Shown here: in pieces, positions 35,120 to 64,000 of the stretch | Layout: the number at the start of each line of letters is the position of its first letter | Position numbering within the stretch: the stretch's first letter is position 1 | Source of the DNA: Diadema setosum | Taxonomy: Eukaryota; Echinodermata; Echinoidea; Diadematoida; Diadematidae | DNA: 64,000 bases | Assembly: GCA_033980235.1 (NCBI GenBank) | Contig: CM067065.1 | Location: 28,150,655 to 28,214,654 of the forward strand | Direction: 5' to 3' | Translations under genes and position numbers: made by a program | The notes under the pieces: generated by a model | Told to the model about the DNA's origin: nothing | Database searches by the model: none | The model's input: the letters and a program-made list of their open reading frames with translations, nothing else

Positions 35120-35285
35120 TCCCAGATAACAGAAACGGTTTCAACGTGGTCAGATCATGGACATGGTCCATCGTCAGATGATGAAACTTTCTCCCAAGAT
35201 TCACTCGAGCACATATTGCTTTGCCGAATCATCCGATTGCTGAGACCAAGGCACAGACGCTTTATTTACTGCACCTTACTGAGAG
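35120..35285 (+). CDS. Exon A (5' border uncertain), SGNH-PHD-transposase gene
   Basis: The frame is open from about 35,075 to a strong donor (GAG then GTAAGC) at 35,285. It encodes a segment with an acidic stretch (SDDETF) followed by a leucine/arginine-rich part (RIIRLLRPRHRR). No Met occurs in frame, and a stop lies at 35,072, so this is an internal exon. The acceptor could be the CAG at 35,117-35,119 or a nearby AG, and the preceding tract is purine-rich, which is weak. It leaves phase 1, which joins exon B in frame. I recognise no domain. It belongs to the gene only by splice phase and strand, so the assignment is tentative. Confidence 0.45.
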
Positions 35286-36395
35286 GTAAGCATTATTATC
35301 AAAAATAAGCAATATGACTGTTTAGAATGTTCGATCATATTGTAGACATGGCTGATGTAGATGTTTTAAAAAGATGGGAAAATCGGTTTTCTGTGTCTGT
35401 AAATTTGTATGTACTTTCGTGAATGGATCAAAGTCATTTTTTGCCCATCGATCGGTAGCTTTAGAGGTTTAGAAGTTAGAAGGCCCACAAAACCAAGCTT
35501 GTAGGACGTTGGACACTGGAATGAAATCAACGACAGCACCAATATTTAGCAGTCCCTTCATTCCATTTCCAAAAATTTCTTTCTGAGTATACAATATTTT
35601 AGTGATGTATCATTTATTTGTATCTATGTTAATAATTTACCCGTGTCTTTATTACATGTTATTACATTCTTCACATTATTGTACTGATTTCGTTGCATTA
35701 TTTGTATACGCGAACATTTCATTGCATCCCGAATTTGTTGGAGATGAAATAAATCAAATTGAACTTAAACAAAAATTAAAGTCAGAAGGCCCATATCTCG
35801 CGAATCCCGCGCCCTAAGCGCGATGTCGACTACTGGCGGTTAGCGGTTACAGTGTTCTCACAGGCTGCGAATAAAGCGTGTTTGCGATTAGACCACGTTT
35901 TCTCCAAAGCGAATTTACTATCCATTATCTCTATAATAGTAGAGTAATTTCAGTACCGTTTGCATCTAGAAGTAATGAGGAATTGGTTATGACACCATTG
36001 TAAATATTTAATGATAAACCCGTTCTTTTTTATGTTATTTCAGTAAAAATTGTAACTGATATTTGTGTGCTTGTGAAATATAAATAATGACAAGTTATCA
36101 TAACTTTATTTAGTTTCTACAGTGGAAGTTGTAAACAATATTGCTGTTTATTCAATGAGGATTGACGAAGATTTTGCTCACAGTTTGATATATGTTTCAC
36201 ACATTGGCAGTTGGGGATGTGTGACACGCAAAGACAATAGACTTTAGTACATGTAATAATATGTAAGGTACTATTTTGGGAAAATTGTTTATCTGCAGGC
36301 ACATTTTCATTTTCAATCACGATTTACTCTTTTTCTAGATATCTCAAGGTTAACAAAGCTTTTGTGTATTGCACTTTTTTTTTTTTTTAATCAAG
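35286..36395 (+). other. Intron between exons A and B, with a LINE-like tail
   Basis: AGAAGGCCCA occurs at about 35,478 and 35,785, bracketing an AT-rich segment that ends GAAATAAATCAAATTGAACT. This looks like a small LINE 3' end with a target duplication. The remainder shows nothing I recognise. The intron ends in a T-run and TTTTTAATCAAG, a good acceptor. Confidence 0.45.
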
Positions 36396-36544
36396 ACTTT
36401 GTCCCACAATGCCGACAACCACTACGTCATGGAGGATCAGCTCAGGGGAAAGATGCGGCAGCGCATCAGCATTTGGAGAGTTATTCGCCAGACGAGGAAC
36501 GGGACGACGCAGCAAGGCAGAGACTTGGGAGACAGGTGTCAGCG
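36396..36544 (+). CDS. Exon B, linker before SGNH domain
   Basis: The exon follows a 16-base polypyrimidine tract and AATCAAG. It begins by completing a GAC codon from exon A and reads about 49 codons rich in Gln, Arg, Asp and Ala (for example SPDEERDDAARQRLGRQ), probably disordered or helical. The donor GCG then GTAAAC at 36,545 leaves phase 0, which matches exon C. A second GT at 36,592 would leave phase 2 and break the frame into exon C, so I prefer the first. All three frames are fairly open here, so confidence rests on splice sites and phase. No domain is recognised. Confidence 0.5.
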
Positions 36545-36670
36545 GTAAACAGAACAGATCTGCGATCGAAGTCCCAAGATACGAACGACCGGTACAGTCA
36601 CTCATTTTTTTTTTTATCTGCGATATAAATGAATAGAAACAACGGCAAATAATTCTTGAATTCGTCAAGA

Positions 36671-36715
36671 TTGAATTGCCTTTTGGACACACTCTCTGTC
36701 CAAAAGGCAATTCAA
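36671..36715. repeat. Perfect 19-bp hairpin
   Basis: TTGAATTGCCTTTTGGACA (36,671-36,689) is followed by a 7-base loop and its exact reverse complement (36,697-36,715). It may be the remnant of a very short foldback element. Confidence 0.85.
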
Positions 36716-36796
36716 ATTATACGCATGAGCATTTTCGAACAAAATTTCAGTGATATCAGGTTTATGATAAAGGCACTATAATTACATTTGCTCTCA

Positions 36797-36862
36797 GTCA
36801 CATGCAAAGAGTATAGAAGCGCACGCACACTGCGTGTGCTTCTATACTCTTTGGTCACATGT
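36797..36862. repeat. Imperfect long hairpin
   Basis: GCAAAGAGTATAGAAGCGCA is inverted as TGTGCTTCTATACTCTTTGG, with CACATG at both outer ends. The loop is short and contains the GCACACTGCG core. No reading frame. Confidence 0.8.
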
Positions 36863-36920
36863 GAAGATGATTTTGCTAAAATAAAGGTGGACATCCCTCC
36901 GAGAAACATCTATACAAAGG

Positions 36921-36997
36921 TAGTCTGGTTTCCAGACCCTTTGCCAACTGGACTCCGCGGCAAAATAGTATGGACAGAGGGTCTGGAAGCCAGACTA
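36921..36997. mobile_element. 77-bp TA-bounded palindromic MITE
   Basis: TAGTCTGGTTTCCAGACCCT at the left is mirrored by GGGTCTGGAAGCCAGACTA at the right. The ends are TA on both sides, as expected if a TA target was duplicated (Tc1/mariner/pogo type). The superfamily call is inference from the ends only. Confidence 0.65.
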
Positions 36998-37413
36998 ATA
37001 TAAAGGCCCTGTCAATGTCACACCTTTCCGGGTAAGCTATTACGCGAGCTTGCTTTTATCAGGGAGGTTTGTCTCACCTCCCTGCTTTTATGTACTGCAC
37101 ATACACTACATACACATGACAGTCAGCATTGACACGACTTGCACGCTTGATGTGGATCTGGATGGCGATTATACTGTATAACATGTCAAACATACAGGAG
37201 ATTTACAATTATTACTGTGGAATGAAGAGGGTGGTGGCAGAGGAAGTGAGATGAACAGGTGGTGGTGTTTATGAAAGGTGATGAAGCATGGTGGTGGCTG
37301 GAGAAAGGAGTGTCAGGTTGACCAGGGTGGTGGCCACCTCCATGGGTTGACCGTGAGGACAGATCGAGTGACCAAAGCTATGGAATATGGAAGCAGGAGC
37401 CCCGTCAAAAACA

Positions 37414-37735
37414 GGGACATACGTCGCTTAGCAATTCGAATTGCTACACGACGTTAACGATTACATGATATGAATTATTACGCGACGTAATTATTTGCGT
37501 CGTGTAGCAATTCGAATTACTACACGACGTAATTCCGAATTACTGCTCAACGACTTAACGTCCCAACATGGAATGAATAGGTGTCATGTTGCAATTCCTA
37601 ATGCTACACGACGTAAATGATTACGTCGTGTCCTAATTCCAATTACTATACGTGACGCAAATAATTACGTTGTAAAGTATTAAAAGTAATTACTGCACGA
37701 CGTAATTCCGAATTACTGCACAACGACTAGCAAGG
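37414..37735. repeat. Cluster of ACACGACGTAAT-type palindromic motifs
   Basis: TACACGACGTAAT and its reverse complement ATTACGTCGTGTA, with small variants, occur about nine times, separated by AATTCGAATTAC-like palindromes. Blocks such as TGCACGACGTAATTCCG recur directly. A related fragment (GTAATCATTTGCGTTGTGTA) lies at about 43,840. Confidence 0.75.
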
Positions 37736-37836
37736 CGAAGTATAATAGCGTAGCGACGTTAAATCGACCAATGAAATCGTTCGTTATTTGTTCAGTGATG
37801 TGTGACAGTGCACGTGCCAAATGTTCCCCATTGTAG

Positions 37837-37864
37837 ACCATGGACCCTATGTAGGGTCCATGGT
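37837..37864. repeat. 28-bp near-perfect palindrome
   Basis: ACCATGGACCCTAT is followed directly by GTAGGGTCCATGGT, with 13 of 14 pairs matching. Nothing links it to a gene. Confidence 0.8.
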
Positions 37865-39135
37865 TAGTTAGTGGCTCATCAAGAGTATCTTGGGAGATTG
37901 GCCTGAGCCGGGATTTGTTATAGGCCTAAAACGCCGGGAAATGTTTTAAAAAAAAAACAGTTATATATTGCCGGGAAATGTTGCCGGGAAATGTTAAAAT
38001 CATGTACATGTACTTCAAAGTTAGGAGATGATCTCGATGTCTAACAAAACTGCTTATGAACCTTTACCGTTTTCATTTTCTTGTTAACCCCACTACGGAT
38101 TTTTAACAAACTTGGCAGATAGCATCTTCATAGTGATATGATCTTATTTGTTTTAATGAGTCCCCCTCCCCCTCCTCCCCCAAGGAGGAGGAGGATGAAG
38201 CCTCAGAGTCCATAAACACTGTAATTTTTTTATCTACTTCTGCCGAACCGAAAAAAAAAATAAAGCTGAGTAAGTGCTATGAAGACATTCATAACTGAAA
38301 TTTCAGTTTGATTATGGCGGAATCAGGGGTGCCCTGATATGGGGGGGGGGGGGGGGGGTAAGGGGGATTTTCCACTTTTTTTTTCATCTTCTTGAAAAAT
38401 CTGTGGCGGATTTTCACCAAACTTGGCAGATATCATATTAATGATGATACCATCTGCCCGGCAAAAAAAAAAGGGGGTGTTAAAGCCCCAAAGTCCCTGT
38501 ATTCTGATTTTTTTTTTTTGTATCTTCTTCTGTCGAACCGAAAAAGATAGAGCTAAGTTAGTGCTATGAAGACATTAATGACTGAAATTTCACGTTTGAT
38601 TTTATGGCGCATCCAGAGGTGCTCTAATAATAGGCTGGGCGGGAGGGGGGAGGGAGGGAGGAGACGGAATTTTCACTTTTGCAACATCTTTTTAAAACAA
38701 GTATGAAAGATTATCCCAAACTCTTGAAAGCGGTTCCTTTAAACCATCCCCTGCCCCCTCTTTTCACCCCTCCCCCATAGATTTAGTGACCTTTAATTCG
38801 AAGAAAATGGGATTCTCTTTTCCTATATGCTTTGGTGAAAAGCCCATTAAATCTTTCAAGAACCTACAGAAAATGTGGAACATCCCCTCCTTCACCTCAC
38901 CCCCATCAGTACACCCCTGAATCTGCCATAATCAAATACACTAGTATGAAATTTCATTCATATAGCACTAACTTAGCTCTCGATTCGACCTAAGAAGATG
39001 GAAATAATTGTAGAGTTTCGGACTCTGATTATCAACTCCTCCCTCCCCCCCCCCTCCTTCGGTCGTGAAGGGGGGGGGGGGGAGCTATATCACCATAAAG
39101 CTGCTAACTGCCAAATTTGGTGAAAATCCGTCAAA

Positions 39136-41160
39136 TTTTTTTTTAATTGTTCTATATTCCACATTTCAACAAATACATAAAACATAAACATCACAATACA
39201 AAAGCCTGGATGAATTGTCAAGTACAGCTTATAAGACAATAAAACATGTGAAATATGAGGAATCTACATAGAAGCATTGTTTGTAGGGAGTAGATCCCCA
39301 GATGCGGATGTGAGATTATTTCTTACTTGGTATATGTAATTAAAGGAATGACAATTTGTGAATTGGAGAAATATAAACGCCAAAAAGTAAAAAGAAAAAG
39401 AAAAAACAAAGAAAACAATGTCCGCGGCACAAGACTTCTTGAGAGTTGCGTGATCACCCGAGCGAGGTACAAGTCAGATGCAGTGTACAATAGCAGAGAT
39501 ACAAAATGTGTACAAAGGAAGTTCAGGAGATAATACAGAAATCACGAGCGAGGCACATGTTACATAATCGATAATGTCAGTAATGTGAAGTATGAACAGA
39601 GAATGTCGAGGAGGATTGAAGAATAGCTATAGATATGAATTCAGAAAAACTAGTTTAAGTTTATGCTTAAATGAATAAAAAGACTGAGATTGGATTATTT
39701 CTCTATCCAACTCATTCCAAAATTTAGGTCCTGTAGTGGTTATTGTTTTTAAAGCAGATACGGTCCGTACAGGAGAAAGATGAAAGAATATTTTTGTCTA
39801 GTAGGGTAAGAATGAACTTCGGTATTTTTGAAAAACATCGAAGAAAACACATCAGGGAGACTACCTGAGTTTAATTGATACATAAATGACCCGATATTGA
39901 AATGATATAAATCCTGGATCTTAAGTGTTCTACTGGAAAAGAATAAGACATTAGTGTGTTCCAAAAATGTGGCGAAGTTAATTATCCGTATAGCTCTTTT
40001 CTGTATCAATAATAAAGAATTAAGTCTAGTTGTACAGCAGTTTCCCCCATTCCAGGATTCCATAACCTATATAAGGCAAAAATAGAGCAGAATACAATGA
40101 ATGCAGAACATGTTTAGGAAAATACTGTTTTAACTTATACATAACACTTACATTTTTTGATAGTAATTTACATGAACTTTCCATGTCAACTTACAATCAA
40201 TATAAAGACCAAGGAATTTTATATATTCCACCTGGTTCAATTCCACGTCGTTTACAACCAACTTTCCCAGTAAAATATTGATTGTATTGCTAAAAACCAT
40301 AAATTTTGTCTTGGTCAAATTCAATGACAATTTATTAGCCTGAATCCACTTAGATACTGATTTTAATCCAGTATTAATGGTATTCAGTAAAACATGAGGG
40401 TTTCGATATTAATAAAAAATGCTGGTGTCATCGGCAAAAAGTAGAAAATAGAGCAGAGAGGACAAACTGCAAAACTCATTCATATAAAGAATAAACAATA
40501 AAGGACCTAAAATGGATCCTTGCGGTACCCCACAAGTTATAGGCTGTGAGCTGGACACATGGCCATTCAAACTAACAAATTGAGTTCTTCCAGTAAAGTA
40601 ACTTCTAAACAACTCCAAGGCCCTTCCACGAATCCCATAGTGTTGTAATTTGTATAATACTATTTCATGGTTGATTGTGTCAAAGGCCTTGGAGTAGTCA
40701 AGAAAGATACCTACTGTGTGACACTTGGCATCGATCGCTTTGACAATTTTCTCTATCATTAGTAAAATAGCATGAATTGTGGAATGCTTTTTACGAAATC
40801 CAAATTGATTATCATTTATTACATTACAGTCATTTAAGAATCTGAATACACTCGTGTACACAATCTTTTCAAGTAATTTAGAAAAAGAAGTTAATAACGA
40901 TATTGGTCGATAATTTCCCAGTTCATCCTCTCGGCCCTTTTTATATATCGGGATAACTTTAGTGACTTTCATCCTAGGCACTACATATATGGGCGAGAGG
41001 TACAACAATCTCATGTACAACATATTTCAGAAGGTAATTAGAAATTCCATCATAACCAGTACTTTTTTTGGCTTTAAGATTCTTTACAATGTCAACAATT
41101 TCGGATTCTAATACAGACATAAAAAACAAAGATTGATTATTGCGATGACTTAAATAAATT
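39136..41160 (-). mobile_element. 5'-truncated CR1/L2-like LINE
   Basis: Reverse-strand reading frames give, in order, the start of a reverse transcriptase (KSTGYDGIS region near 41,070), its core (40,409-41,023), a thumb-like part with EYIKFLGLYID (about 40,205-40,240) and a C-terminal part with QKRAIRI (about 39,970). Endonuclease sequence is absent, so the copy is 5'-truncated. It lies inside the inverted-repeat complex and therefore inserted after it. It is antisense to the SGNH gene. Borders are approximate. Confidence 0.8.
40409..41023 (-). pseudogene. LINE reverse transcriptase fragment
   Basis: The 204-codon frame carries the RT blocks YRPISLL, QFGFRKKHST, FLDYSKAFDTINH, GVPQGSILGPLLF and LLFADDTS. 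The FADD tetrad is the catalytic aspartate site. A frameshift near 40,985 separates it from the upstream KSTGYDGIS block, and a stop follows soon after FADD, so no full ORF2 can be made. The order and wording of blocks fit the CR1/L2/Jockey side of the LINEs. Confidence 0.85.
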
Positions 41161-43454: not shown

Positions 43455-43537
43455 ACTATAGACTCAGTCCTTACTGCGTGTTCGTCTTAGAAGGTACCTT
43501 GAATACATATTTTCTGATACATGTTATATACCAGTAG

Positions 43538-43830
43538 GTTTCATTTCATTTATTTCATTTCATTTATTTCATTCTTTCTCTCTTTTTCGGCAAACATAAC
43601 ACGAAATGAATCAGAAGATATAACATACTATAGGCATCTAATTCGACTTTACGGGGTAGATAATAGTTAACAAATACAAAATTATACATGCATACCGGCA
43701 AAATACAAAGCTATGTCTGGAGAAAAAAAGAAGAAAGAATTGAGAGGTCCACTGAATAGCATGCTTGTAAATTGTGGACCACTCAATAATAATAAAGGTT
43801 AATAAACATTCCGTAAGATTGATCTGTTAA
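43538..43830 (-). mobile_element. LINE 3' end, reverse orientation
   Basis: On the reverse strand this ends in repeated GAAATGAAATAAAT words (43,540-43,575 on the + strand as ATTTCATTT). The adjoining AT-rich DNA contains a GTGGTCCACAATTTAC-like 3' UTR. No coding sequence remains. Confidence 0.55.
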
Positions 43831-44047: not shown

Positions 44048-44178
44048 GTTAAGAACATCAGATTTTATCCTTTCTGTTATATAGACGTCAGAGACAAATT
44101 GCCCTACATCGACGTATATAAGCACTGAATTGATCAGTGTTTTAGTAGTAGCCATGATAAAAAAATCATGGGCGTACA

Positions 44179-44250
44179 TACTCGAGCAGGATTCGAACCT
44201 ACGACCTCCTGATCACCGGACAGGCGTCATCTCCACTAGACCACCGAGCT
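44179..44250 (-). pseudogene. tRNA-like segment (reverse copy)
   Basis: The segment matches the + strand copies described at 44,646. It retains the A-box- and B-box-like words. A further reverse copy starts at 44,446 and is cut at 44,493. Confidence 0.6.
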
Positions 44251-44645
44251 TTCGCCCGACAGCAAGTGTTGGTTCTAGTCCTTATAGCATGCAGCGGGTA
44301 CTGCTTTGTTATTCAAATTCATGAAATTCTTCCGTCGAGATGTTTTCATTGCAACTGATTGACAAATTGCCCTACATCGACGTAAATAAGCACTGAATTG
44401 ATCAGTGTTTTAGTAGTAGCCATGATAAAAAATCATGGGCGTACATACTCGAGCAGGATTCGAGCCTACGACCTCCTGATCACCGGACAGGCGATCAATT
44501 CAGTGCTTATTTACGTCGATGTAGGGCAATTTGTCAATCAGTTGCAATGAAAACATCTCGACGGAAGAATTTCATGAATTTGAATAACAAAGCAGTACCC
44601 GCTGCATGCTGTAAGGACTAGAACCAACACTTGCTGTCGGGCGAA

Positions 44646-44717
44646 AGCTCGGTGGTCTAGTGGAGATGACGCCTGTCCGGTGATCAGGAGGTCGTAGGTT
44701 CGAATCCTGCTCGAGTA
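44646..44717 (+). pseudogene. tRNA-like segment, copy 1
   Basis: TGGTCTAGTGG fits an RNA polymerase III A box and GGTTCGAATCC an exact B box. A 5-bp T stem (GTAGG/CCTGC) and a 7-base T loop form, and the acceptor arms pair mostly. The anticodon stem has a T-T mismatch, and position 33 is C instead of the near-universal T, so a working tRNA is unlikely. Confidence 0.6.
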
Positions 44718-44912
44718 TGTACGCCCATGATTTTTTATCATGGCTACTACTAAAACACTGATCAATTCAGTGCTTATTTACGTCGATGTAGGGCAATTTG
44801 TCAATCAGTTGCAATGAAAACATCTCGACGGAAGAATTTCATGAATTTGAATAACAAAGCAGTACCCGCTGCATGCTATAAGGACTAGAACCAACACTTG
44901 CTGTCGGGCGAA

Positions 44913-44984
44913 AGCTCGGTGGTCAAGTGGAGATGACGCCTGTCCGGTGATCAGGAGGTCGTAGGTTCGAATCCTGCTCGAGTA
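44913..44984 (+). pseudogene. tRNA-like segment, copy 2
   Basis: As copy 1, 267 bp downstream. GGTCAAGTGG replaces GGTCTAGTGG in the A box. Confidence 0.6.
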
Positions 44985-45179
44985 TGTACGCCCATGATTT
45001 TTTATCATGGCTACTACTAAAACACTGATCAATTCAGTGCTTATTTACGTCGATGTAGGGCAATTTGTCAATCAGTTGCAATGAAAACATCTCGACGGAA
45101 GAATTTCATGAATTTGAATAACAAAGCAGTACCCGCTGCATGCTATAAGGACTAGAACCAACACGTGCTGTCGGGCGAA

Positions 45180-45251
45180 AGCTCGGTGGTCTAGTGGAGA
45201 TGACGCCTGTCCGGTGATCAGGAGGTCGTAGGTTCGAATCCTGCTCGAGTA
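45180..45251 (+). pseudogene. tRNA-like segment, copy 3
   Basis: As copy 1, with an intact A and B box. The upstream sequence has ACACGTGCTGTCGGG in place of ACACTTGCTGTCGGG. Confidence 0.6.
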
Positions 45252-45494
45252 TGTACGCCCATGATTTTTTATCATGGCTACTACTAAAACACTGATCAAT
45301 TCAGTGCTTATTTACGTCGATGTAGGGCAATTTGTCAATCAGTTGCAATGAAAACATCTCGACGGAAGAATTTCATGAATTTGAATAGACGTAAGATATT
45401 TTGTTATTTGTCGTTGTATGTTCATTGTCATGTCTTAGTCTTGTTCCTGTTATTTCTTATTATATCAATTATTCAATTTTTGCTACCCGGACCT

Positions 45495-46060: not shown

Positions 46061-46779
46061 GAGGAGAGATGAGACTATGTTGAGAGAAGGGAGGGGGAGA
46101 GAGAAAGGGGGAGAGAAAACAAAGAAAAGAAGAAGAAGAAGAAGAAGAAGAATGAAATTCAAGAAGTAAAGGAGAGGGGGCTTGGGGGATCCTACAAATA
46201 AATGCTGCAGAGGAGGAAACAAAAATGGAGAGGAAAATTGATGACACTTAAATCCTGGAAAAGGTTACTGTGGAAGAAATGCAAAATGAGAGATTAAAAT
46301 AAGGCTAAAGTGTTGTCCTGAGGGGAGAAGGCAAGAGGAATAACCTGTGAAGAAAACTGTAAATTATTTATACAAGTTGTCCCGAAACGGACCGTTGGGT
46401 TGTATGGAAGGAAGAAAAATAAAATGAAAAAGAAAAAAAAGAAGAGAAGAGAACAGAAAAGAAAATATAAGATAAGTAGCGTAGAAAAAAAAACAATGGT
46501 GTAGGAGGGAGAGGAGAGAATTAAAATACTGAGTAAAAAGTGCTAGCGAAAGAGCAAGAAATGTACTATGTCAAAAAAACGTTACACGACTGTGAGCCTA
46601 TACAGAATTGAGTGCAAATAGTTCACATGAAATACATGTACCAGCAGAGTTTGTTCAGAAAAAAAAAGATAAGATACAAGTCCTCTTTCTCTCAAATGGA
46701 TATATAGTGTAATTTTAGAAAACTCTGACTGCTAGCGGCACTTAGAGGGTGTGTAAAGTTCTGGTTGAGGTGAGGATTT

Positions 46780-47070
46780 AGCTTTCATCGTTTTGCGAGA
46801 TATTCCGAAACCACTCTATGAGATATCAAAGAGCATGCAATTCTAACTGGTCTCAAAAGTTTACTTGGTGAAAGTCGGTTTTGAAATGGCTGAGATATCC
46901 AAAAACAAGGTGAAACAAAGAGATCCTAATAAAAGGCGTGGCCTGTGGTCTTTTATTATTATCACTTTTTTTGTGGATATCTCAGCCATTTCAAAACCAA
47001 TTTTCATCAAATAAAAGTTGAATCCTTCTTAAAATTACATGCTCTATCTAATTTCATGAGAGGTTTCTCA
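46780..47070. repeat. Palindromic repeat centred near 46,930
   Basis: The left arm has GGTTTTGAAATGGCTGAGAT and the right arm its inverse ATCTCAGCCATTTCAAAACC. Similarity extends outwards (AGAGCATGCAATT and AAATTACATGCTCT) and the loop is about 80 bp. A related single arm lies at 53,500-53,535. Confidence 0.75.
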
Positions 47071-48660
47071 CTATCTTGGGAATGTAGAAAATTGAATACC
47101 AACCTCAACAATTACTATACAGCCCCTTTAAAAGTAAAGTTAGAAACGTGTCTTTCTATATCTCGGTCACGTTAATTAATTCCAGTGAATCCAGCCCCGT
47201 AACGAAATTCTCAGTAAAATACCTTTAATTACATTATCAAAATGACGTGCGAAATTATTACATAATTGATTTCTAAAGCTGCTACTTCTTGTAAATTCTC
47301 GACAGAAATGGAAAATTTAACACTGATTATTCCCCTTACAGAAGGCGGGGCTGCAAAGAGAAGAACGCATCGGGGCCATCCCACAATATTAAGAAATATG
47401 CAAATTATTAACACACGTGCACATTTGGAGTAGCCATGCATAAGGATATCATTGCATATGTCTCATTATTTTTGCAGTTACTTTCATAAGTGCAAAAAGG
47501 AAAGGATACAAGGATACCATTGTGCTATTAGGAAGTGAATAAAACCTGTGCAATTTTGTGTGCAAAAGAAGATAAGAACGAAGTTAAATTACCAGTGGGT
47601 CTCTATACTTCATGAAGTCTTACTATAATATATCAAATTAATCTGCATAATATTTTACAAATTATATTATGGTCGACAAAAAACAATGTTACGAAGCCTA
47701 ATGAAAGACAATGAAAGTACCATAATTCCAGTATCTTATTTTAGTACACACCGGCTATATTATACCATTGTGCTTTTTTGCAAGCGTTTTAAGCCTTGTT
47801 GCTTTAAAACTGTTACTATACTGAACAAAATGTAATACATGCGTAGGTTACAAGACAGTTTCCTGTACAGTTTAACTTATCATCATGGCATCGTGTACGT
47901 CGCAGCCAAATATGCAAATTAGCAACTCCAGGAACATTGTGGATTTAGTGAATGCAGACACACTTGTGAAACGCCAAGTTGAAAATTTGATGTTCGCTAT
48001 AGATCAACACATGTTTGTTCTTTTTTAGGGGGTCGCGTATGTTGGGGACATACTTTGGGCACCTATGCCTTGGAATGTGGAAGCGTACGTGTCACATCAC
48101 AGACATTCTAAAGGGAGCATGCCTCCTCTACTTTTAGTTCCGTTTCACTTCATAAATGGAAAAGTGTGTTTGCTATATGGCCGGAAAGCGTTAAATGGAC
48201 GTACTCTTTGATTAATATGAGGCGTTTTGTGTATAGGGTCCTTGTTGTGGTTGTGGTAACTTACAACTTTTAATGTGCGTCCTTTTTGATGAATTAAGCA
48301 ATAAATAGAACAATGAATAGAGCCATGTTTTCTGCATCTGTACATTCAGAGAGAGGTATATATTACATATATGGAGAGAAACATTTAAGTAGGCCAAAGT
48401 TGTAAATCATACGGGTACCACCTTAGTACAAATTTGATTTACTTTCACCATTCATCGAAATCTGACGGACAAGAGCGATTATGGGAGATAGGGGATAGAA
48501 AGTGAAACAGAGAATAATATGAGAAAGGGGGAGAGAGGAAAAATGGTTATGGTTTAGAATGAAAGAAGAAAGAGGAGTGCAAAAGCTATTTAGCTATATC
48601 ACACAAACCCATGGAGATCACGATAATATTTCTTGTTTTTCATTCATCTCTATCTATCAG

Positions 48661-48936
48661 GTTGCGTACATCTTTGGCGATAGCCAGCTGCGTCCAATAG
48701 TGCAGTGTGACGTGAAGATTCCGCAGGGGCCGATCCAACTGATCGTCAACTGTACCCCAGGTGGGACCTGCCAGGACGTGGAGCAGGAGCTCGTTGATTT
48801 TACCTGGCACCACCAATCAAGCATTATAGTGTTGGCAGCAGGTGGCAACAACGTGGACTGGGGGGCATCATCGCTTGATGAGGCATGTGCCCAGTTTCGA
48901 GGCCTCCTCTGTACGGCACGAAGAATGACAAAAATG
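48661..48936 (+). CDS. Exon C, SGNH hydrolase N-terminal half (Ser, Gly, Asn blocks)
   Basis: A pyrimidine-rich acceptor (CATCTCTATCTATCAG) is followed by 92 codons and a donor (ATG then GTATGC), phase 0 on both sides. The exon begins VAYIFGDSQLRP: the GDS serine (codon at 48,682) is the SGNH block I nucleophile. NCTPGGTC offers the block II glycine, and LAAGGNNVDWG the block III Asn. SGNH enzymes cleave esters or similar bonds; the substrate here is unknown. GC content and codon use are clearly higher than in the flanking repeats. A Met at 48,559 is in frame just upstream, so an alternative start without splicing cannot be excluded. Confidence 0.85.
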
Positions 48937-49859: not shown

Positions 49860-52800
49860 TAATTCACAACATTTTGGTGTATTCCAATACACAATATGGA
49901 TTTTGATCATGATGTATGCAACCGAAATGTTGTAAATCATTCGTGTGATTATTAGACAATAGAAGAATTCAATAAGTTTAATTTTTTACATGATCAGAGA
50001 TATTCAGATATTCCAAACGATGCAAATAGACATTTTTCGAAATGTTGCAGTTTAATCCACATAAATTCTAGAAGTCTTAGTAAAAATTTTGATTTTGTAG
50101 AGTTACTGCTGTCATCCGTAAAAAAAAAAAAAAAATAAATCCTTTTCGTTTATAGGGATAACAGAAACTTGGTTTAACGCAAATTCATCTCCTTTATCTA
50201 GTATTCCACAATATCAGTGTTTGCGTTTGGATCGCCGTCACGGGAAGGGGGCGGTGTTGCGCTTTACTTTCATTCTCAGCACTGCTCAGTATGATTTTAA
50301 ATTAAGAACAGATTTACAGATAGAGAACAGTGAATCTTAATTTATTGAAATACTACAAAAAACATAAAAAGAATATTGTTTTAGGAATGATATAAAGACC
50401 ACCAAGTAATTCTGTAGATACTTTTTTTGATAAATTTGAATTATGTTTAGATAATATAACACGCGAAAATAGGTTATGTTTATTTGATGGGTGATTATAA
50501 CATTGACTTACTGAAATGGATGCAAATACCTCACAAAAATTTGTTGGCATCCTTAATTCGTATGCTTTCTGTTCCCACATCTCTACAGCCACTCGCATTT
50601 AGACAACATCACAAACACTCCTTGACAATATATTTTCAAATGCACCTCATGACACCTCGTCAAATGGAATTTTGCATTATGATTTTTCAGACCATTTACC
50701 GATATTCACTATCATTGACCAGCTAAATTTTACGTCGTCTATACCCCAACTTAAGAAAATGTATAGGAAGAAACTCCCATGAATATTGAATTATTAATTT
50801 CTGATTTGATAAATGAAGACTGGTCAGAGGTGTTTCATCAGTCTAATACAAATAAGGCCTATGATATATTCATATCTATGTTAACGGACTTATATGAGAG
50901 AAATATACCGTTAGCCCTCACAAAAAGAAATAGAAAAAACAGAAAACATTGGGTAACCAAAGGTATACTACAATCTATAAAAACCCGTCATAAATTATAT
51001 GTATTAGCACTGAAGAGTGAATCGAAATCTCAATATTCAAAATATCGTTTTTATAGAAATAGACTTACCTCAGTGATACGACTTTCCAGAAAACTTTATT
51101 ACTCACGGAAAACTGAATCACATAAAATTGATATAAGTGCGCTTTGGAATACAATAAATGTTTTACTGGAGAAAAAAATCTCATAACGACAAATGTAATT
51201 TATAAGTTGATGATGAGCTGGTAAACGATCCACTCAAAATCGCAGAAGAATTTAATAGGTATTTCGTTGAGATGGGTCCTCGTCTTGCCTTCGGATTCGG
51301 GAAATGCTCATTTTACACAATACTTACCGTCATCTCTCGAAAATTCTTTATTTCTTATGCCCAAAAATCGTTATGAAATTATTAAAACAGTCAAAGAAAT
51401 TAAGACTAGCCATTCCAAAGGCTATGATGGGTTTAGCGTTAACCTTGTTAAGCAGATAATACACTCCACAGCCGACCCGTTTTCTCATATTCTTTAGTTT
51501 ATCGCTTTCTCCTGGTCAATTCCCAAACGCATTAAAAATAGGCAAAGTTATACCGATATACAAGAAAAGTGATTCGTCTCAATTATCGTCCAATTTCGTT
51601 GCTTCCTGCCTTATCAAAAGTTTTAGAAAAGATTGTACATAGAAGACTTTATGGGTTTCTGAATGATAATGCATTATTAGTTCCTAGTCAATTTGGTTTT
51701 AGGAAAAAACATTCTACTGATTATGCAAGTATTCAATTACATGATCAACTCATTGAATCGTTTATGACAAAGTCGTGTGTTATCGAATTTTCATGGATCT
51801 GAGCAAGGCATTCGATACCATAGATCATATTATCTTATTGTATATAATGCAGAAATATGGTATCCGCGGCCAAGCACTAAACTGGTTTAAAGGATATTTA
51901 CATAACAGAAGGCAGTATGTGTTTTATCAATCGACAGAGTCTAATAAACAAAACGTTCTCTGTGGTGTCCCACAAGGATCAATCTTAGGACCTTTGTTGT
52001 TTTTATATATATATATATCAATGATTTAGTGTAGTCATCTTCGTTATTTAACTTTATTTTGTTCGCAGATGACACGAGCACCTTTTTTTTCCCATAAAAA
52101 AACAACCTACATACACTAACTACAGTTGTTAATTCAGAATTATTAAAGGTCTCAACGTGGTTTAAGTGCAATGAATTATCATTAAATATTGAAAAAAAAA
52201 ACCGAATTATGTTCTCTTTAGAATAGCCATACACCAATGGACGATATCAGGTTATATATTGATGGCAAGCAATTGGATCCAAAGTCCTGTGTAAAATTCT
52301 TGGGGTTATCTATCGATTCACACCAAACATGGTCCGATCATATACACCAAGTTTATTCAACAATTTAAAAAAATATCGGGATCCTCTGGAGAATACCTTA
52401 CCAAACATACCCTTCAAATTCCTTATAATTCACTCATATTATATACCCCATATCACCTACTGTAATATTGTATGGTGGAATTGCGGTGTTAACAAAGCAA
52501 AGTCGATATTGTTATTACAAAAACGTGCTGTAAGACTTATTACCGGTTCACACTACTTAGCACACACTGAATCTTTGTTTTATGATTTAAATACTCGTAG
52601 AATTTCCGACATACATACATGGCAGCAGCAATATTTATGTATAAATATACTACCACTCAGCTCCCTGATTTGTTTAAAGATACGTATATTTCAAATTATA
52701 GCATTCATTCAATCTACCCGTCATGCAACAGATTAACATTTGGAAAACCCTACACTCATTGTAGCTCAAAATTCATGGTCCCGATGTATGGAACTAATTG

Positions 52801-54958: not shown

Positions 54959-55290
54959 GTTATTGCCACGAGCATCGTTCCTCGCCTCGACTCCAAAGGA
55001 GACCTTGTTGACAAGTACAATGAGGCATTCTCAGCAATCTGTAGAGAAGAAAGAGTATACTGGTTGAATGTAACCAGCCATTTCCCGACTGAGGACAAAC
55101 GTTTGTGGGCAAGAGACGGGTTCCACCTCAGCGAGTGTACTGGTCTTCCTCGCCTACTCACTGACATCTACCGCCGGATGGCAGACATCCTATTTTGGCC
55201 TGATCATGGACCTACCACATGGTCTGATCCACCCCCAATTCAATCTCCACCCCATGGGGTCTCCACAACATCTAGTCTCACCCATGCAAG
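54959..55290 (+). CDS. Exon D, SGNH hydrolase C-terminal half (Asp-His block)
   Basis: The exon enters in phase 0 and leaves in phase 2 (AAG then GTAACT). VIATSIVPRLDSKGD resembles the central strand and loop of SGNH folds. RDGFHLSECTG supplies block V: Asp (codon 55,115) and His (55,124) spaced DxxH, as in active SGNH enzymes. A helix (LLTDIYRRMADIL) closes the fold, and a Pro/Ser-rich tail starts the linker. Together with exon C the domain has about 175 residues, in the usual range for compact SGNH enzymes, with all catalytic positions present. Substrate and compartment are unknown; no signal peptide is visible. Confidence 0.85.
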
Positions 55291-58200
55291 GTAACTCGCG
55301 TCATACAGAGGCTGACTTTTTTACCCAGGGCTCGAATAACACGTCGAGGACATCAAGTATTGTATCATAAAGATAAACTTAACACAGATTGTTTGCATCG
55401 TTAAAATTTCAGTTTTAGTCATTATCTTTTGCTATCGTAGGGGAGTAGAATAGAACTCATTGACAGATGGTTATTTCTCACCCAATCTGGTATCGCTTTA
55501 ACGGGTACTCCGTTTAATTGGGTAGTAATGTCAAAATCAGTTCCAATGCACATTAAAATCACCTGATGATTGGGTCGTCTCTCCGCATATATGGGTAAAT
55601 AATTTTCTTCTTATCTTATATCAGTATTTAATTTGTCCATAAAAAGAGTGTAAATTATTTCTCGCGACTGAGGAAGTGTAAGGTATGTATAATGTGCCGT
55701 GCAAGCACGCGTGTTAAGCATACAGTGTAGGTATTTGGTGCAGTGTACAATGCATGTACATACACACTGTGTGTGTCAATGTGAATGAGACGTGTCCTTC
55801 TGTTAATCGGGTACTCCGCTTAATCGGGTAAGAAACGCTCTGCCCGAGCCTATACCCAATTATGCGGAGAGTACTGTAATAAACAAAGCATCCACTATCA
55901 AACAAACTAAATGAGTGGGTGTCAAAGTTGTAATAAACACACTGTAGTAGAAATTGAATTTATTGATCACCTTCTTCGTGTTAGGGTTAATACTTGTTAA
56001 ACCAAGACCTGCCTGCATGGCTCTTCCAACTTCATAGCAATGATGCCAACAAGAAAAAAGAAATATGATCGAACATCAGGGTATAACGTTATCCACTTTA
56101 TCCAATCAATAAGAGAAGAGGGCGACAAAAACTCCAAGTTCGTGCTTCATAGGTCACAACTAATGTATCAGTAACGAATTATTGCAGCTCACAGTCCATT
56201 CCTATACTAAGAGTGTCCACGAACGAAGACTAGTCAGCATCTGCGTTGTGTCGACTGGAGGGGGGAGGGGGGATGTCCTAAAGACCGTTACTCTAAGGCT
56301 TGCTGAAAATTCTGCATACCGGCTCCACAAAGTAGTCATTCAATTCCTGCATTAAATCAAGGCATGGTTCCACAACATACAGGAAAGAGTTCATGTGATT
56401 TTATAGCCAGTGTTTACCATAAGCAACAGTGATTTGAAAAAAAAAAAAAGATTGAGTTCACATTTGATGCATGGGCGTATATTTTGTGTGGGTCAGTTGT
56501 CCCACAAGAAAAAAAAAATCATATTATATCTTTAACCCTATTCTAACTGGGGGGGGGGGGGGGATCAATTTGACCCCCCCCCCCCTCGACATTTCGCGTC
56601 GCGATTCCGCAACGCGCAAAGATTTGCCACGTCGTTTCATGACTTTTTTCTTTGAAGTCTCCCGCATATTTTGAGACCAAATTTGCGATGTCCGGGTACA
56701 CCGTTCTGAAGTTACGTAATGTTTTGCGTATGCATGTCAACCCGAAAACAGCTCAAATTCATGATATCGTGTGCAAATCCAATGCAAAGTGTGTTTTTTT
56801 TTTTGGTTAAAATGACATAAATTAGATTATTTCAACTTTTAACCATTGAAATTAATCAATTTTAACGTAGATAAGCTTGAGAAAGTGAGTGCAACAAATT
56901 TTGGCCAAAAAAACAATTGAAAACAAAAGGGCAAAAAACAAACAAATACATAAGAAATTAACTAAACAATAGAAAACAAAAGAAACTGATTTTTATTGTA
57001 CTATTTTTTTTACAAGAAAATTGTTCAATTTGTCTTGAGGAACTTTTACACAAAAATTTAGCAATCATTCAGTCTTGTTAATGGAGTTATAGGTGAAAAT
57101 ATGATTTCATGCGTAAATTTGGATAATCAATTTACTAAAAATAGAAAATCAAAAATTTTCCTTTATATGACCATGCAATCTTGTAGTTGACATCCAGCTC
57201 TATGTTCAGGCAAAATTTTGCGGCGATCGCGCGATCGGCGGCCGAGATCTGAAGGGGGGGGGGGGTCAAATTAACCCCCCCCCCCAGTAAAAACTTGGTC
57301 TTAAATAGCCCAGTTAGAATAGGGTTAAATGCTTCGCAATAAAGCCTAAAATTGAAGATGTCATTATTTTTCTCAGTAAACCGTAACGGTAGACGGTTTG
57401 TTCTAGAAAAATGAAATCTGTTGTTCACATTTTGTAATTTAGCAGTACCTACCGGTCGCTAACACAGTTATATACTGATTGACATTTTTAAATTCGTTGT
57501 TTCTATTCCTATTTTGAAGCAATACGGAGGTGTTGTTTTTATTTTTTTGTTTAATCTGCAAATGGTATATCGTGCCTTTATAAAACAGGAAGAGCTTCAA
57601 ATGGACAACAAAGAATTCATGAAATACCGACTCTCAAAGTCAAATAATTTTCAATGGGTAAAGTCCAGTTTTCTACCCATAAAAACATTAACAGTAGAGT
57701 GGTCTTGCAGTTGTTCCATCACCTTACCCAACTGGATATCTCGACATCAAAATATTCAACTACAGAGCAGAACATGGTTTACTAGCCTTTGTGAATGAAC
57801 AAACAGTATAAGGACCAAAATAAAATCGTTTGAGTTGCGAAATAAGTTCATCAGGATGGTATACAGGTAAAACAGGATGATTGATTAAATACTGAATACT
57901 TAGTTCGCTAAACACATCTACATTGTATTTACCTGTCATTTGATTTCAACAAAACTGCCAAAGAGAAATACAACCATGGAATAAGAATAATGATAACCTA
58001 GTAATGATAATAATATTATATCAATAATCAGGTCTCCTTTATCGTGGAGAATCTCTTCAGTTTTGCTACAACTCGAGAAGAGGACTCTGAGTTGTTATTA
58101 CAGTAGACCTATTTGTATAGACACTTGGGTCAAGAGGGACTAGGTAAAAACATCTCGACGAATGACGTAGCACTGATGGGCGGGATTTAAAATCGGGTCC

Positions 58201-58737: not shown

Positions 58738-58965
58738 ATCAGCGGATGTGCCAAGTCATCCCCCTGGGTCTCCTTCACCATGTCAATCCCGATCTGTAAA
58801 GTCAACCAGGAAAGTCTCTTCCCCGAATAAATTCAGAACAGTCTCTTCCCGTGGTCAATCCAGGACTAATTCCTCTCTAACTCAATTCAGGGATGTATGT
58901 GAGGGATGTCCATCCAAGACGGTATCTTCGCCTTCTGATGTCATAGTTTCTATTGAGCATCTAAT
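58738..58965 (+). CDS. Exon E, Ser/Pro-rich linker
   Basis: The acceptor (TCCATGAATCCAG) completes an Arg codon split after exon D. About 75 codons follow, rich in Ser, Pro, Arg and Lys (SHPPGSPSPCQSRSVKSTRK and similar), with one CEGC motif. The donor (AAT then GTGAGT) leaves phase 2, matching exon F. It looks disordered and basic, compatible with a flexible nuclear linker. No known domain. Confidence 0.75.
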
Positions 58966-59118
58966 GTGAGTAACCCTTCTTCGACATACTAGCTTCAGGC
59001 GGCACATAGTTTGCTTTTGCTGTGTTTTGTACTTTGTTAATTATATTATTTGAGCATTTTAGTCTTCTTTTAATATATTGTAATGAATCCCCTAGTACTT
59101 TTGTTTTTGTTTTTGCAG

Positions 59119-59278
59119 AGAACCTGTCTTCATTACCGGGACATCAGCGTGTGGTCATGCGTCCTGTGAAATTGTTTCAGTAACCAGCAAGCGCAACTCT
59201 GGATGGTACTCAAGCGACTCACTGCTTGGAGTCAAGAGTTACTGTGAAAGGAATGCTGACAAGTGCGAAACAAAGAAG
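59119..59278 (+). CDS. Exon F, short Cys/Ser-rich segment
   Basis: After a long T/G tract and TTTTTGCAG it completes an Ile codon from exon E and reads 53 codons: EPVFITGTSACGHASCE, then a NSGWYSSDS region and CERNADKCETKK. The donor (AAG then GTTGGC) is weaker than the others, phase 0. The Cys and His spacing is not a zinc finger I recognise. The 153-bp intron before it is the shortest in the gene. Confidence 0.75.
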
Positions 59279-60667
59279 GTTGGCCTAAATAAAATTACTA
59301 AAACTAGCTGCAGTGCCAAAGATAAGTTGAAATTGAAAGAAGTGTTAGTTTCTTATATTGCGTTTGAAAGTGATGCAATTAAAACTTTGTTATAACCGAA
59401 TAAGTAACACCAGGATAAAGGGTCTATCAATAAAATTCAACATGTTCCACGTGTCATCTCTTAAACTCAAAGAGATCACCATAAAACCAAAAACTTTCTT
59501 GGAGTAGCAGCAAAGATTTATTCCTCTACTCGAGCGCCCAGTGGCGTATCTGGGGGGGGGGGGGGGGGGGGGGGGGGCAAGGGGGGCCCGTGCCCCGGGC
59601 GCCACTCCTTGGGGGGGGGGGGGCGCCAAAAACGAAAAAGAAAAAGAAAAATCGCCCGGACGGTGGGAGGGGGAGAATGGGGAAGGGCATAAAACCAAAC
59701 CAAATAAGATTAAAAACAAAACATGATGATGACGCGTACAAAATGGCAATGTTTATTGTGTTCACACAAGAATTCCATGTTTTGTAAGCTGAAAATTTTG
59801 GCTCGCTCGCCAAAATTTATAGATATAAAAAAAGAAGATAAGAACAACACGTGACGAAGACGCGGACAAAATGACAATGTCTATTGTGTTCACACATGTC
59901 ATTTTATATTTAGCAGGCATAATGTTACACAAAGCAGCGGCTGCAATTTCTTTCGCTCTGAAGCGATCGCCGAATGGATAGAGGACGCCAACGGTTTCGA
60001 ACGTACGGGGGGGGGGGGGGGGGCAACCCCCTCCCCCCCCCAAAAAAAAAAAATCAAAGAAGATAACAACAAAACGTAACGATGACGCGGAAATATACAA
60101 ATTTCGGCTCACTTGCTCGTAAATCTAGAGTGTTTTTTCAAGTCCTCCGTTTGTTGGTATAAATCGTTATCTTTAGAGCCGTCACTATATCTTGATTAGA
60201 ATTGTAAGATTTGATAACCCAAAATGACAAGAATTCCATGTTTTGTAAGCTGAAATACAAACATTTATTACATTAAAGTTACCCTCAAATGACCCCTTAA
60301 AGTTAAGTGCTTGAAAAAACATGCTAGAATCATATGGATTTTTTTTTTAAGTCCCTACCGGGATGGGGTTGGGGTTGAACACTTTTTCAGAAATTAAGGG
60401 CGCAATTTTGGCGCTTTCCCCTTTCGCCGTTTTCCCTATAGGTACGCCACTGTCAGCGCCATAGTGCCAAGAGTCTCGAATCTTCCTCTGCCCCACTTGA
60501 GTTGAACAGCTTATACTTACTTTACATAAATGCATATTCATAACATTAGATTATGCACTATGAAAAATCTGAGGGAGAAAAATTACTTTTGCACAATCAC
60601 AACACTTTGTTGAGTCATGTATTTATCCCATTATTCGTTATTGTTCATATATCTTATACTTTCTCAG
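59279..60667 (+). other. 1.4-kb intron with hAT-like element
   Basis: The first 250 bp are AT-rich. The element at 59,539-60,452 fills the middle. The tail ends in TTATACTTTCTCAG, a strong acceptor for exon G. Confidence 0.7.
59539..60452. mobile_element. 914-bp hAT-like non-autonomous element
   Basis: It starts CAGTGGCGTATC and ends GGTACGCCACTG. The 8-bp flanks CGAGCGCC and TCAGCGCC agree at six of eight bases, a decayed hAT-type duplication. The left end is followed by a G run of about 26 and GGCAAGGGGGGCCC. Inside, a unit with TGATGACGCGTACAAAATGG and TTTATTGTGTTCACACA repeats about 160 bp apart, and GAATTCCATGTTTTGTAAGC recurs at 59,770 and 60,230. The proline-rich frames across the G runs are artefacts. 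Confidence 0.65.
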
Positions 60668-63600
60668 GTCTTGGAGACAAAAAAGAAGAAGGGACAAGAC
60701 AGGAAGATACTTGGTGGGGCACCAGAGGGCAAGAAACGTTTCGTTAGGGGTAAACACGCCACACTTGACTTCGATGAGATTGCTGAGGCAATGGCAGCAG
60801 TGATCAATGATTCAAACATACCCGTCCTTTCCACTTCATTCTACCAAACTGTTGCCAATAGACTTGGTTGGCCGACTTCTCGTCACAAGAAGTCAGTCAC
60901 ACAACTGAGACGATATTGGAATGGAAACAGAGAGAATACCAGAGATAAAGTCCAAGCCCTCCTATCACCAACGGGTTTTCGTAGAGTCGCGGGACTTCAC
61001 AGCAATGAACCCGAAGTCCATACCGACCGCAAAACAATTATTCAGCACAATCTAGGCCGTAGACAAAAGAAGCAAAAACGCTTTTCAGGGAATTGGGTCG
61101 TAAATGACAGCAAACCAAAGTCACTGATCTGTGTTTGCCAAAAGAAATACGACAAGAAATTGCAGTACATAAGGTGTGATGGTTGCAAGCAGTGGTATCA
61201 TTATTCTTGTATGAACATTCCTGAATCAGTCGAAAATGGTCGAGGAGTCACATTCTACTGTGGAGAAGATTCATGCAATCAAGGGAAATATTCACTTACA
61301 GTGAAATCTGTGAATGTAAAGACTGAAGACATAGGGGATGCGGTTAGTACTGTTAGCAGCAGCTGTAGTAAATATGGTTCAGACATTGACAATAAAAGAA
61401 ATGATTCACAAGGGACAAGAGAAAAACCAATGAAGCAAATGTCGTCCATTACATCTTCTTCAGCTAAAACACAAACAGATGCTGTTATTAATCTAAAATG
61501 GGGGGATGGGGTTGAAGGAAAAGCAGGTAACACAAACGACTCATTCACCGTAGTTTGCATTCAGGACGATAAAGATACTGAGCAGTTACAGCGCAAGTCA
61601 TGTTTTGAACACGCTGAAAGAAATACTGAAGTTTACAACAGTTCTTCGCCTAGTCCAGGGACAAGTTTCCATGAAAGTATATCTACCGATAAAGATAATT
61701 CAATTAATGATGATTCAAATTGTCAAAACTTGTCAAATGAGGAAACACAAAGTCGGCAACCACCGTCCTCAACTGCATTGAAATCTAATGGCATGTCTGA
61801 TATCGTAATAGCTGATAAAGATACATTAGTTCCTGGAAACCCAAGTATTGTTGCAAAGGACAAAAGAACTCATCATCGTTCTGTACGTCCTCATAATAGT
61901 ATTACAACTGATAGCAAAGTTGAAGATTTCTTTACCCACGAATTACCTCGGCAATCAAACTTTATTTTTCCGCAGGTCGAATGGAATAAACTGAAAGCAA
62001 ATCAGAAAGGACGGCAATTTCAACGTAATGAATGGGAACACATAGTAATGCAAGGCATAAAAGACAGTAATCCGTTTTGTGTTTTCGCATTCAAACACCA
62101 CAACGTGACAGTGGCAGCCACAAGGATTCCTGATGTTATATTTCGCGCCCATGCATATTGTAAATTTGAGAGCTGTGGGATACGAGTTGACGTTGCTATC
62201 CATAAATCGTTTAAAGCAACGGCAACATACAGCGGTAATGTAAAGCATCACAGAAACGAAATCGAGAGTAGAAATATTTCAGGCAAATTGAGACGGGATT
62301 TACGAAAACAATTTGGCTTGGGTTGCCTGCCTATGAAGTTGTACATAGACAAATACAGCGAAATGGAAGAAAGCGTTTGGGATTCGGGGAACAGAGACGC
62401 CACTGGATGTAACCTTCACGTCCTTCAAAAAATTTCAAGCGAAAGTAGGACGAGTTTAAGGAAAGACAGGAATGAGCTTGAAAGCCTTATGAAGCTCAAA
62501 TTTGACATGGCAAAAGAATACCTTGGAATAATTCCAGGTGTTATCCAGAAAATTTCAGCAAAGCCTTTTTACGTTATATGTTTTACTGAAGAAGGTGTTC
62601 GCAATTTTCATAAACGAGCAGGAAATGAGGTACTATTTTGGGATGCAACTGGTAGCTGTGTCACTTCATCATTGAATGATAAAAGGCTATTATATTATGA
62701 GCTCTGTATTGGTCCGAAAGGCGGGAAGGGTCATACTTTGCCACTGGCGTGGATGATTAGTGAAGAACATTCTGAACCCATCATATTGGATTGGATGAAT
62801 GTTTTTAGGGCTGCGGAGAAGAAAATCTACGGTCATTCTAATCTCTGCGTGCCTATGGTCATATGCAGTGATAGAGCATGGGTGTTTCTACTCGGCGCAA
62901 TAAAGATATTCAATGTTGACAATTTGCACACATTCATGGCAAGAGCTTGGAGAATCGTCAATGGACGAGGAACTGCTGAAGATTTGAGGCAAATAACTAT
63001 CCCACATGCATGTACTAGTCACTTCATGAAAAATGTAACAAATATTTGTAAGTCTTCCACTTCACGTTCAAGGTTTGTGATATACGCCTTGAGCTTACTA
63101 GTTAACGCTATATACTGGGAAGAATTTGTGTCAATCTTTTCGAGTTTGATAGTAGTGCTTCTGTCCACTTACAAAACTAATCTATTCATGATTAACGCTA
63201 AAGGTCTGCACGATGCAATCGGCAATCTAGGGGACATAAGTTATGATTACAGACAAAAGTGCAGCAACTCTACCCCATCTATTGATGTAAGTGCTGGAGA
63301 CACCGAAGAGGTCTCATATGTTACGACAGAAAAGGAATATTTTAACGCTATACCGTCTCCATTCAAGGATTTCTTTTCATCTACCATAGAAAAGTACAAA
63401 AATATGGTTTTTGAGCAGGATCGTACCCATCCACACGTACTAGCAATAAATCCAGACAAAAATGAAAGTTTGCTTTTCAAAATTGCGAATGACCTTCTCC
63501 CAACCTGCGTGATTTGGTCTAATATAATGCTAGGAGACCTTTCAAGGTACACATCCAACAATGATAACAAGTCCTATGGTGAATTCAGGGCGGAAATTAT

Positions 63601-64000
63601 GTCTCTTCCCAAAACAACTGGACATGCAGAGCAACGAATGGGAGTATTGAAAAATATACAATTAGCAAACAAAAAAATAAATCGCGTTGATGAGTTCATT
63701 TCAATTGTGGCTCATGATATAAAAGGAATCCAGAGAAGTCACAACGATCAAAATACAAGGATGTCTCGCAAAAGAAAGCGCACACAGCTGAAGCATGACG
63801 CGGCGGATGATAAACAAGAAGTGTCTCTAGCCCAAACCCGACATGATTCGCCAGTTTCCAAACAAACTAACAGTGCGAATGAAAAGTTACAGGATGATGG
63901 AGATTGCGTGTTAGTGTCAAAACGCTCAACGGAGACAATCAAAGAGGAATGGAACAAAAAAAGTCATAGGAAAAAAGTAGGCATATTTCAGAAAGCACCC
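60668..64000 (+). CDS. Exon G (partial), PHD finger plus MULE-like transposase
   Basis: From a clear acceptor the frame is open for 1,111 codons to the window edge. Residues 1-150 are basic and helical. A C4HC3 PHD finger lies at residues 155-203 (61,130-61,276): CVC, RCDGC, WYH, SC, then C and C. PHD fingers read histone H3 tails. A Ser/Asn-rich stretch follows (about 210-420). At about 498 YCKFESC with a later KHH may be a WRKY-GCM1/FLYWCH-like zinc motif, which MULEs often have. The transposase core follows: FWDATGS (Asp 659, codon 62,642), CSDRAW (Asp 735, 62,870), IPHACTSHFMKN (63,002) and IYWEEF (63,110), the order of MULE DDE enzymes with their H-C-H insert. A basic tail (SRKRKR) resembles a nuclear signal. 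The 3' end is missing. Confidence 0.85.

Follow-up and report, generated by a model that had tools for sequence, protein, structure and literature searches.

The pairing of a PHD finger with a transposase of the Mutator-like element (MULE) type is already known in animals from Rehavkus, a group of MULE-related DNA transposons that PMC6446971 reports only from insects and annelids. The stretch of DNA considered here, referred to as the window, comprises 64,000 nucleotides of the sea urchin Diadema setosum (assembly GCA_033980235.1, CM067065.1:28,150,655-28,214,654, forward strand; C7:28150655-28214654 in the genome as searched, which spans 886 Mb in 96 contigs), and it holds a candidate transposase exon of this kind, called exon G, preceded by a module encoding an SGNH hydrolase. 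The reading developed below, to which we assign a probability of roughly 0.6, is that exon G makes up the greater part of a Rehavkus-like transposase gene of the MULE type, its protein continuing past the window, and that this gene and the upstream SGNH module (exons C and D) have been inherited as one unit, either within the same gene or as adjacent partners. The KAONASHI elements of plants resemble the locus as MULEs equipped with an Ulp1-type protease; they differ in being plant elements, and we know of none with a PHD finger or a ubiquitin-specific protease (USP). Rehavkus shares with it a PHD finger within the MULE-like transposase of an animal host, but is described as having a minisatellite before its 3' terminal inverted repeat (TIR), and a word search of the main text of that paper gives no mention of USP, Ulp1 or SGNH (PMC6446971). 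Phantom and other animal MULEs resemble the predicted succession of a WRKY/GCM1-like (or FLYWCH) finger and a MULE-type DDE core, whereas their zinc finger is tabulated as none, FLYWCH or SWIM, and not as PHD (PMC6446971). Beyond the MULEs, echinoderm RAG1L/RAG2L is described as a DNA transposon in which a PHD finger accompanies a DDE recombinase, and in this it is alike (PMC7204232). Texim SGNH genes, described as kin to retrotransposon esterases, are present in sea urchins and Helitron-associated in fish; there the partner is a Helitron rather than a MULE, the likeness to the module in the window being one of description (PMC4021074). In the open-licence literature (subscription papers and Repbase lying outside its reach) we found no transposase combining USP, Ulp1 and PHD, no SGNH hydrolase accompanying a MULE, and no full set of PHD, MULE, USP, Ulp1 and SGNH. 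An earlier sequence-only reading of the window knew of no described system uniting SGNH, PHD and MULE; the PHD-MULE pair on its own is not new.

The features on which the argument rests are the following, C1 denoting a paralogous locus on another contig.
60668-64000, on to 66364, + strand: exon G, with an N-terminal domain, PHD finger, WRKY-like finger and DDE core (Pfam, homologues, and an acceptor and GGAP motif shared with C1)
61130-61264, + strand: PHD finger (PF00628, E 2.2e-7), its nearest solved PHD fingers being those of Spp1, PHF2 and BPTF
61943-62398, + strand: WRKY/GCM1-like zinc finger, three ligands read as C-X4-C-X23-H
62468-63751, + strand: RNase H-type DDE core, with D659, D735, CxxH at 782-785 and E988 in exon G numbering
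48661-48936, + strand: exon C, first half of the SGNH domain with the GDS, G and GxN blocks (Pfam PF13472 over C and D; residue 1 of the Lytechinus pictus protein P0006 aligns at 48661)
54959-55290, + strand: exon D, second half of the SGNH domain with the DxxH block (Pfam, P0006 alignment, and a C/D intron of the same position and phase in C1)

The frame of exon G stays open past position 64,000 to window coordinate 66,364, giving 1,899 codons from the acceptor with the stop included, and the extension encodes UCH (E 2.3e-27) and Ulp1 C48 (E 1.8e-11) domains by Pfam, as in the database homologues P0001, P0007 and P0008. The complete order is N-terminal domain, PHD finger, WRKY/GCM1-like finger, DDE core, ubiquitin-specific protease and Ulp1 SUMO protease; the last two escaped the sequence-only reading because the window ends inside exon G. 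The predicted fold is MULE-like, with a WRKY-like finger and an IS256/P-element-like RNase H core, in a model whose confidence (pLDDT, the predicted local distance difference test) rose from a poor 50.6 with an alignment of 6 sequences to 77.7 with 11; families missing from the fold-search list are not thereby excluded. The D, D and E of the core are conserved in the alignment, as is the CxxH motif (cysteine in 10 of 11 rows, histidine in 11 of 11), which, placed between the second D and the E, is a feature of MULE and Mutator transposases. The predicted fold and these residues support a MULE-like transposase, as had been proposed, although the Pfam MULE profile (PF10551) leaves the core in the window unmatched and reaches one of the 11 family members at E 2.6; profile searches otherwise recovered both the PHD finger and the SGNH domain, as the sequence-only reading had anticipated. 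The best viral structure match is a bracovirus protein (E 2e-8).

Ten database homologues of the transposase region were found, of which P0001 matches exon G at 61% over 764 columns. Pfam places a PHD finger above the cut-off in four (P0001, P0004, P0007 and P0011) and just below it in P0008, UCH in eight and Ulp1 in five. Several are truncated N-terminally, and the majority derive from metagenomes, in which gene calls are probably unspliced, so that upstream exons could be missing. In P0004, from Holothuria leucospilota, the order is PHD-UCH-DDE: the USP stands ahead of the transposase core, whereas in P0001, P0007 and P0008 it does not. The viral contig and genome contig collections held no relatives of the DNA of the locus, and the phage collection gave no match.

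Exons C and D together encode an SGNH/GDSL hydrolase (Lipase_GDSL_2, PF13472, E 4.8e-8, above cut-off), and because the alignment with P0006 (44% over 186 columns) spans their junction the C/D splice is real. The active-site blocks read GDSQ, GGNN and DGFHLS, and the earlier assertion that all catalytic blocks are present is borne out; comparison of the SGNH sequence with solved structures gave nothing significant. The same arrangement recurs at C1, the closest complete paralogue, whose 2,381-codon frame has the order PHD-DDE-USP-Ulp1 (PHD, UCH and C48 by Pfam) and matches exon G at 52% over the core and 40% over 1,823 aligned residues. About 8 kb upstream of that frame and on the same strand lie two SGNH pieces (C1:33450307-33450531 and 33448859-33449113) that, when joined, match PF13472 at E 1.1e-9, above cut-off. 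The two SGNH domains are 32% identical over 168 columns, with the active-site blocks kept (SDSQ, GTHN and DGFHLS in C1), and the intron between their halves has the same position and phase 0 at both loci, C1 having one more intron and its donor being assigned by eye from the printed sequence. Order and strand are the same and the spacing from SGNH to transposase is 5.4 kb in the window and 8 kb in C1, while exon G begins in both at a phase-0 acceptor followed by the shared GGAP motif. Identical codon positions 1/2/3 amount to 42/55/27% between the SGNH domains (residues 30% over 179) and 52/63/35% between exon G and its counterpart, so that both parts show, in these alignments, a codon-position pattern indicative of protein-level constraint.

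The CR1-like long interspersed nuclear elements (LINEs) offer a different account of the esterase and the PHD finger, in which both would be the remains of a LINE ORF1 and the transposase would be separate. Kapitonov and Jurka are said to have described, in 2003, a CR1-like ORF1 with an esterase and a PHD finger; the two lie in one intronless open reading frame (ORF) upstream of the endonuclease and reverse transcriptase. Reverse transcriptase pieces do occur in the putative introns of the window, but the PHD finger lies in a single unbroken frame with the DDE core and is found alongside it in homologues, which rules out this origin for the PHD finger, and the SGNH intron is conserved between the paralogues, unlike a LINE ORF1. 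This account is therefore exceedingly improbable.

A second alternative is that a host SGNH gene merely happens to lie beside a transposase gene, and here the rest of the genome is informative. The transposase is present at about 13 PHD-MULE places and SGNH domains of the window type at no fewer than five loci (four by the P0006 query and one fragment on C14 by the window SGNH query), with at least 40 places in a broader PF13472 search; these counts are lower bounds and the copies named here are best candidates. The SGNH domain of C1, used as a query, recovers itself only and misses even that of the window, and its reach is thus short. With about 13 transposase places, chance would put a second SGNH domain on the same strand and no more than 15 kb upstream about 4e-4 times for the window subtype and about 5e-3 times for all GDSL places, the distance having been set after the spacing was seen and the counts being lower bounds. 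The association is beyond chance because the arrangement recurs at a second locus, and SGNH and PHD-MULE appear to have been inherited together, as one gene or as two neighbours.

Several observations weigh against common inheritance. The less extreme chance figure results from adding the 40 GDSL places to the subtype loci. None of the 10 homologues has an SGNH domain, and P0006 (LOC129276577) itself continues from SGNH into an RsmB/F-type rRNA methyltransferase, which we take to be NOP2-like, instead of a transposase; the two may be truly fused, or the gene model may have merged neighbouring genes. No SGNH was found 2.6-12.6 kb upstream of the distant copy on C8, 0.3-10.3 kb upstream of the copy on C20, or in the 30 kb around the fragments on C17, nor, by coordinates in the genome-wide lists, for either SGNH search near the other copies. 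Nor is there a counterpart of exon E or F, two further candidate exons taken up below, between the SGNH and transposase exons of C1, and no TIR was found for the window locus or for C1 (window 30001-60668 compared with 66365-83500; at C1 the left-hand 16.2 kb compared with the right-hand 6.6 kb, the element ends being undefined). The homologues, the Lytechinus gene model and the fact that splice phases are uninformative would all suit unrelated neighbours, but the repetition of the arrangement at C1 makes that explanation improbable. With SGNH absent upstream of the C8 and C20 copies and around C17, the inherited association is limited, as far as examined, to the branch that includes the window and C1. 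C17 carries two fragments, which have stops in some pieces and whose DNA matches portions of 60463-61538 at 88-94% identity; among the matches listed, further copies are interrupted on C14 and C12, distant and open on C8 and C20, and small elsewhere, and C1 is the only close complete paralogue.

How the SGNH module and exon G are connected depends on the stretch between them and on the gene model first proposed, in which seven + strand exons (A to G) were joined in phases 1, 0, 0, 2, 2 and 0. All seven exist with AG/GT borders, exon G having an acceptor only and running off the window, and on joining the phases are reproduced and every junction is open (35,285/36,396, 36,544/48,661, 48,936/54,959, 55,290/58,738, 58,965/59,119 and 59,278/60,668); the third of these, C/D, is confirmed by homology, and those involving A and B lack support. 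Codon scores were read against stop-free intronic stretches. Exon A scores 0.039, placed between the median and the 90th percentile, and its acceptor is purine-rich (5 of 17 pyrimidines); exon B scores 0.161, at about the 99th percentile, yet similarly in three frames (0.163, 0.139 and 0.161), all open. Because neither has a Pfam match, the acceptor of A is poor, B is alike in three frames and the supposed B-C intron harbours a LINE reverse transcriptase as well as four genes resembling tRNA-Thr, these two exons should be dropped from the sequence-based model. A weak similarity of the B region to the DNA upstream in C1 (score 55, against 43 for the best reversed control) was set aside, since its frame differs from the proposed one and is incompatible with the phase of C. 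The remaining candidates are as follows.
58738-58965, + strand: exon E, a weak candidate linking exon (codon score 0.027, just below the 90th percentile of 0.029; no C1 counterpart)
59119-59278, + strand: exon F, a candidate upstream coding exon of the transposase gene (codon score 0.229 in the claimed frame, above the 99th percentile of 0.159; acceptor with 14 of 17 pyrimidines, donor matching 6 of 9 positions)

Agreement of phase had been offered as evidence for a single gene, and this part of the proposal does not survive. Requiring donors of at least 6/9 and acceptors of at least 10/17, the window contains 96 two-exon paths from D to G; the number in 20 Markov controls ranges from 3 to 113 and averages 42, and other thresholds give 857, 21 and 0 paths; the agreement along D-E-F-G is at chance level and uninformative, and evidence must therefore come from homology and the rest of the genome. 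As for counterparts of E and F in C1, the top matches were a repeat at 56.6 kb common to both loci, where the DNA also matches, and low-complexity stretches, and were rejected.

It is possible, if unlikely, that splicing joins the SGNH exons and exon G in one gene, whose protein of more than 2,200 residues would run SGNH-PHD-WRKY-like-DDE-USP-Ulp1. The order, strand and similar spacing kept at two diverged loci speak for it, as do the phase-0 acceptor before GGAP in both, the first methionine past the acceptor in the window lying beyond GGAP, the donors after D and E (8 of 9 positions each) and the coding appearance of exon F. Set against this, no database protein joins SGNH to the transposase, 95 other paths are as good as D-E-F-G, E and F lack a counterpart in C1, and an upstream coding exon is not strictly required. 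Exon G can start alone: its open frame reaches back across the acceptor to an ATG at 60617, and a methionine stands ahead of GGAP in C1. These starts speak for an SGNH accessory gene and a transposase gene standing side by side in one unit, an arrangement whose chances we place somewhat short of even. Two-gene MULEs exist. The recurrence of the linkage at C1 accords with two partner genes, SGNH genes mobilised with Helitrons provide a precedent in the Texim-carrying elements (PMC4021074), and possible poly(A) signals follow exon D at 55552, 55878 and 55932; but the first kilobase beyond the corresponding exon of C1 contains none, and no TIR was found flanking either SGNH-transposase pair. The proposal of one gene joining SGNH, PHD and MULE is thus retained in part: all three are present and associated above chance at two loci, their union in a single gene being less probable than two adjacent genes. 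Homologues that never hold both had been named as refuting a single gene; the ten database proteins do lack SGNH, whereas the C1 locus has both.

TIRs with a target duplication of about 9 bp are a hallmark of MULE and Mutator elements. One candidate TIR pair flanking SGNH and exon G, 46746-47075 and 67376-67051 (88%), proved to be a palindromic dispersed repeat with further copies. This MITE-like (miniature inverted-repeat transposable element) sequence at 46746-47075 recurs farther along the extended locus, near 67.0-67.4 kb and 79.5-79.9 kb. Beyond the stop of exon G there are a 2-copy 82-bp repeat at 2.7 kb and a 436-bp array at 10.5 kb, with no TIR as reference. Because TIRs were not found and C1 is the one close paralogue seen complete, we rate an active transposon and an old low-copy element or domesticated pair as equally likely.

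For the preferred reading of a Rehavkus-like transposase inherited with an SGNH partner, a mechanism can be sketched. It is plausible, with Spp1, PHF2 and BPTF as the nearest solved PHD fingers, that the transposase targets chromatin through its PHD finger, as the sequence-only reading suggested; the finger would dock it on chromatin methylated at lysine 4 of histone H3 (H3K4), the WRKY-like finger would bind the element ends and the DDE core would cut and join DNA. The USP domain may strip ubiquitin, and the Ulp1 domain SUMO, either from chromatin or from the transposase itself, and so counter silencing or degradation by the host. Least certain is what the SGNH esterase does, the nearest precedent, by analogy, being the lipid-related role proposed for the esterase of retrotransposons without long terminal repeats. 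Even without SGNH, a histone reader, USP and Ulp1 in one transposase frame suggest an element with the means to reverse control by ubiquitin and SUMO where it inserts or acts. If the SGNH module belongs, MULEs join LINEs and Helitrons among the mobile elements that have esterases as partners, and their unexplained role in transposition becomes open to comparison. A single protein of more than 2,200 residues in two diverged paralogues, combining SGNH, an H3K4-methyl reader, a WRKY-like finger, a MULE DDE core, a deubiquitinase and a deSUMOylase, would read chromatin and erase two silencing or degradation marks, a prospect that we consider doubtful.

The DNA around these features is rich in repeats. 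Positions 1-28723 of the window are occupied by long minisatellite arrays of about 436 bp, larger blocks of which partly repeat every 3.25 kb or so, and a shorter array of the same period lies past the window at about 76.8-78.5 kb (L010:3336-4995), with short matches inverted. The four tRNA-Thr-like genes, at 44177-45253, have the anticodon GGT, which is unusual for animals, and three of them lie on a 267-bp tandem repeat; DNA resembling this array also occurs at C1, about 3 kb past the downstream end of the paralogue. LINE reverse transcriptase remnants are recognised by Pfam at 40409-41026 (- strand) and 51542-52026 (+ strand), the latter broken into pieces amid LINE-like ORFs (50.4-53.8 kb) within the C/D intron of the SGNH module. 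Finally, 56530-57330 and 59547-60041 are MITE-like repeats with long runs of G and C at their borders, the second repeat lying in the stretch ahead of exon G.

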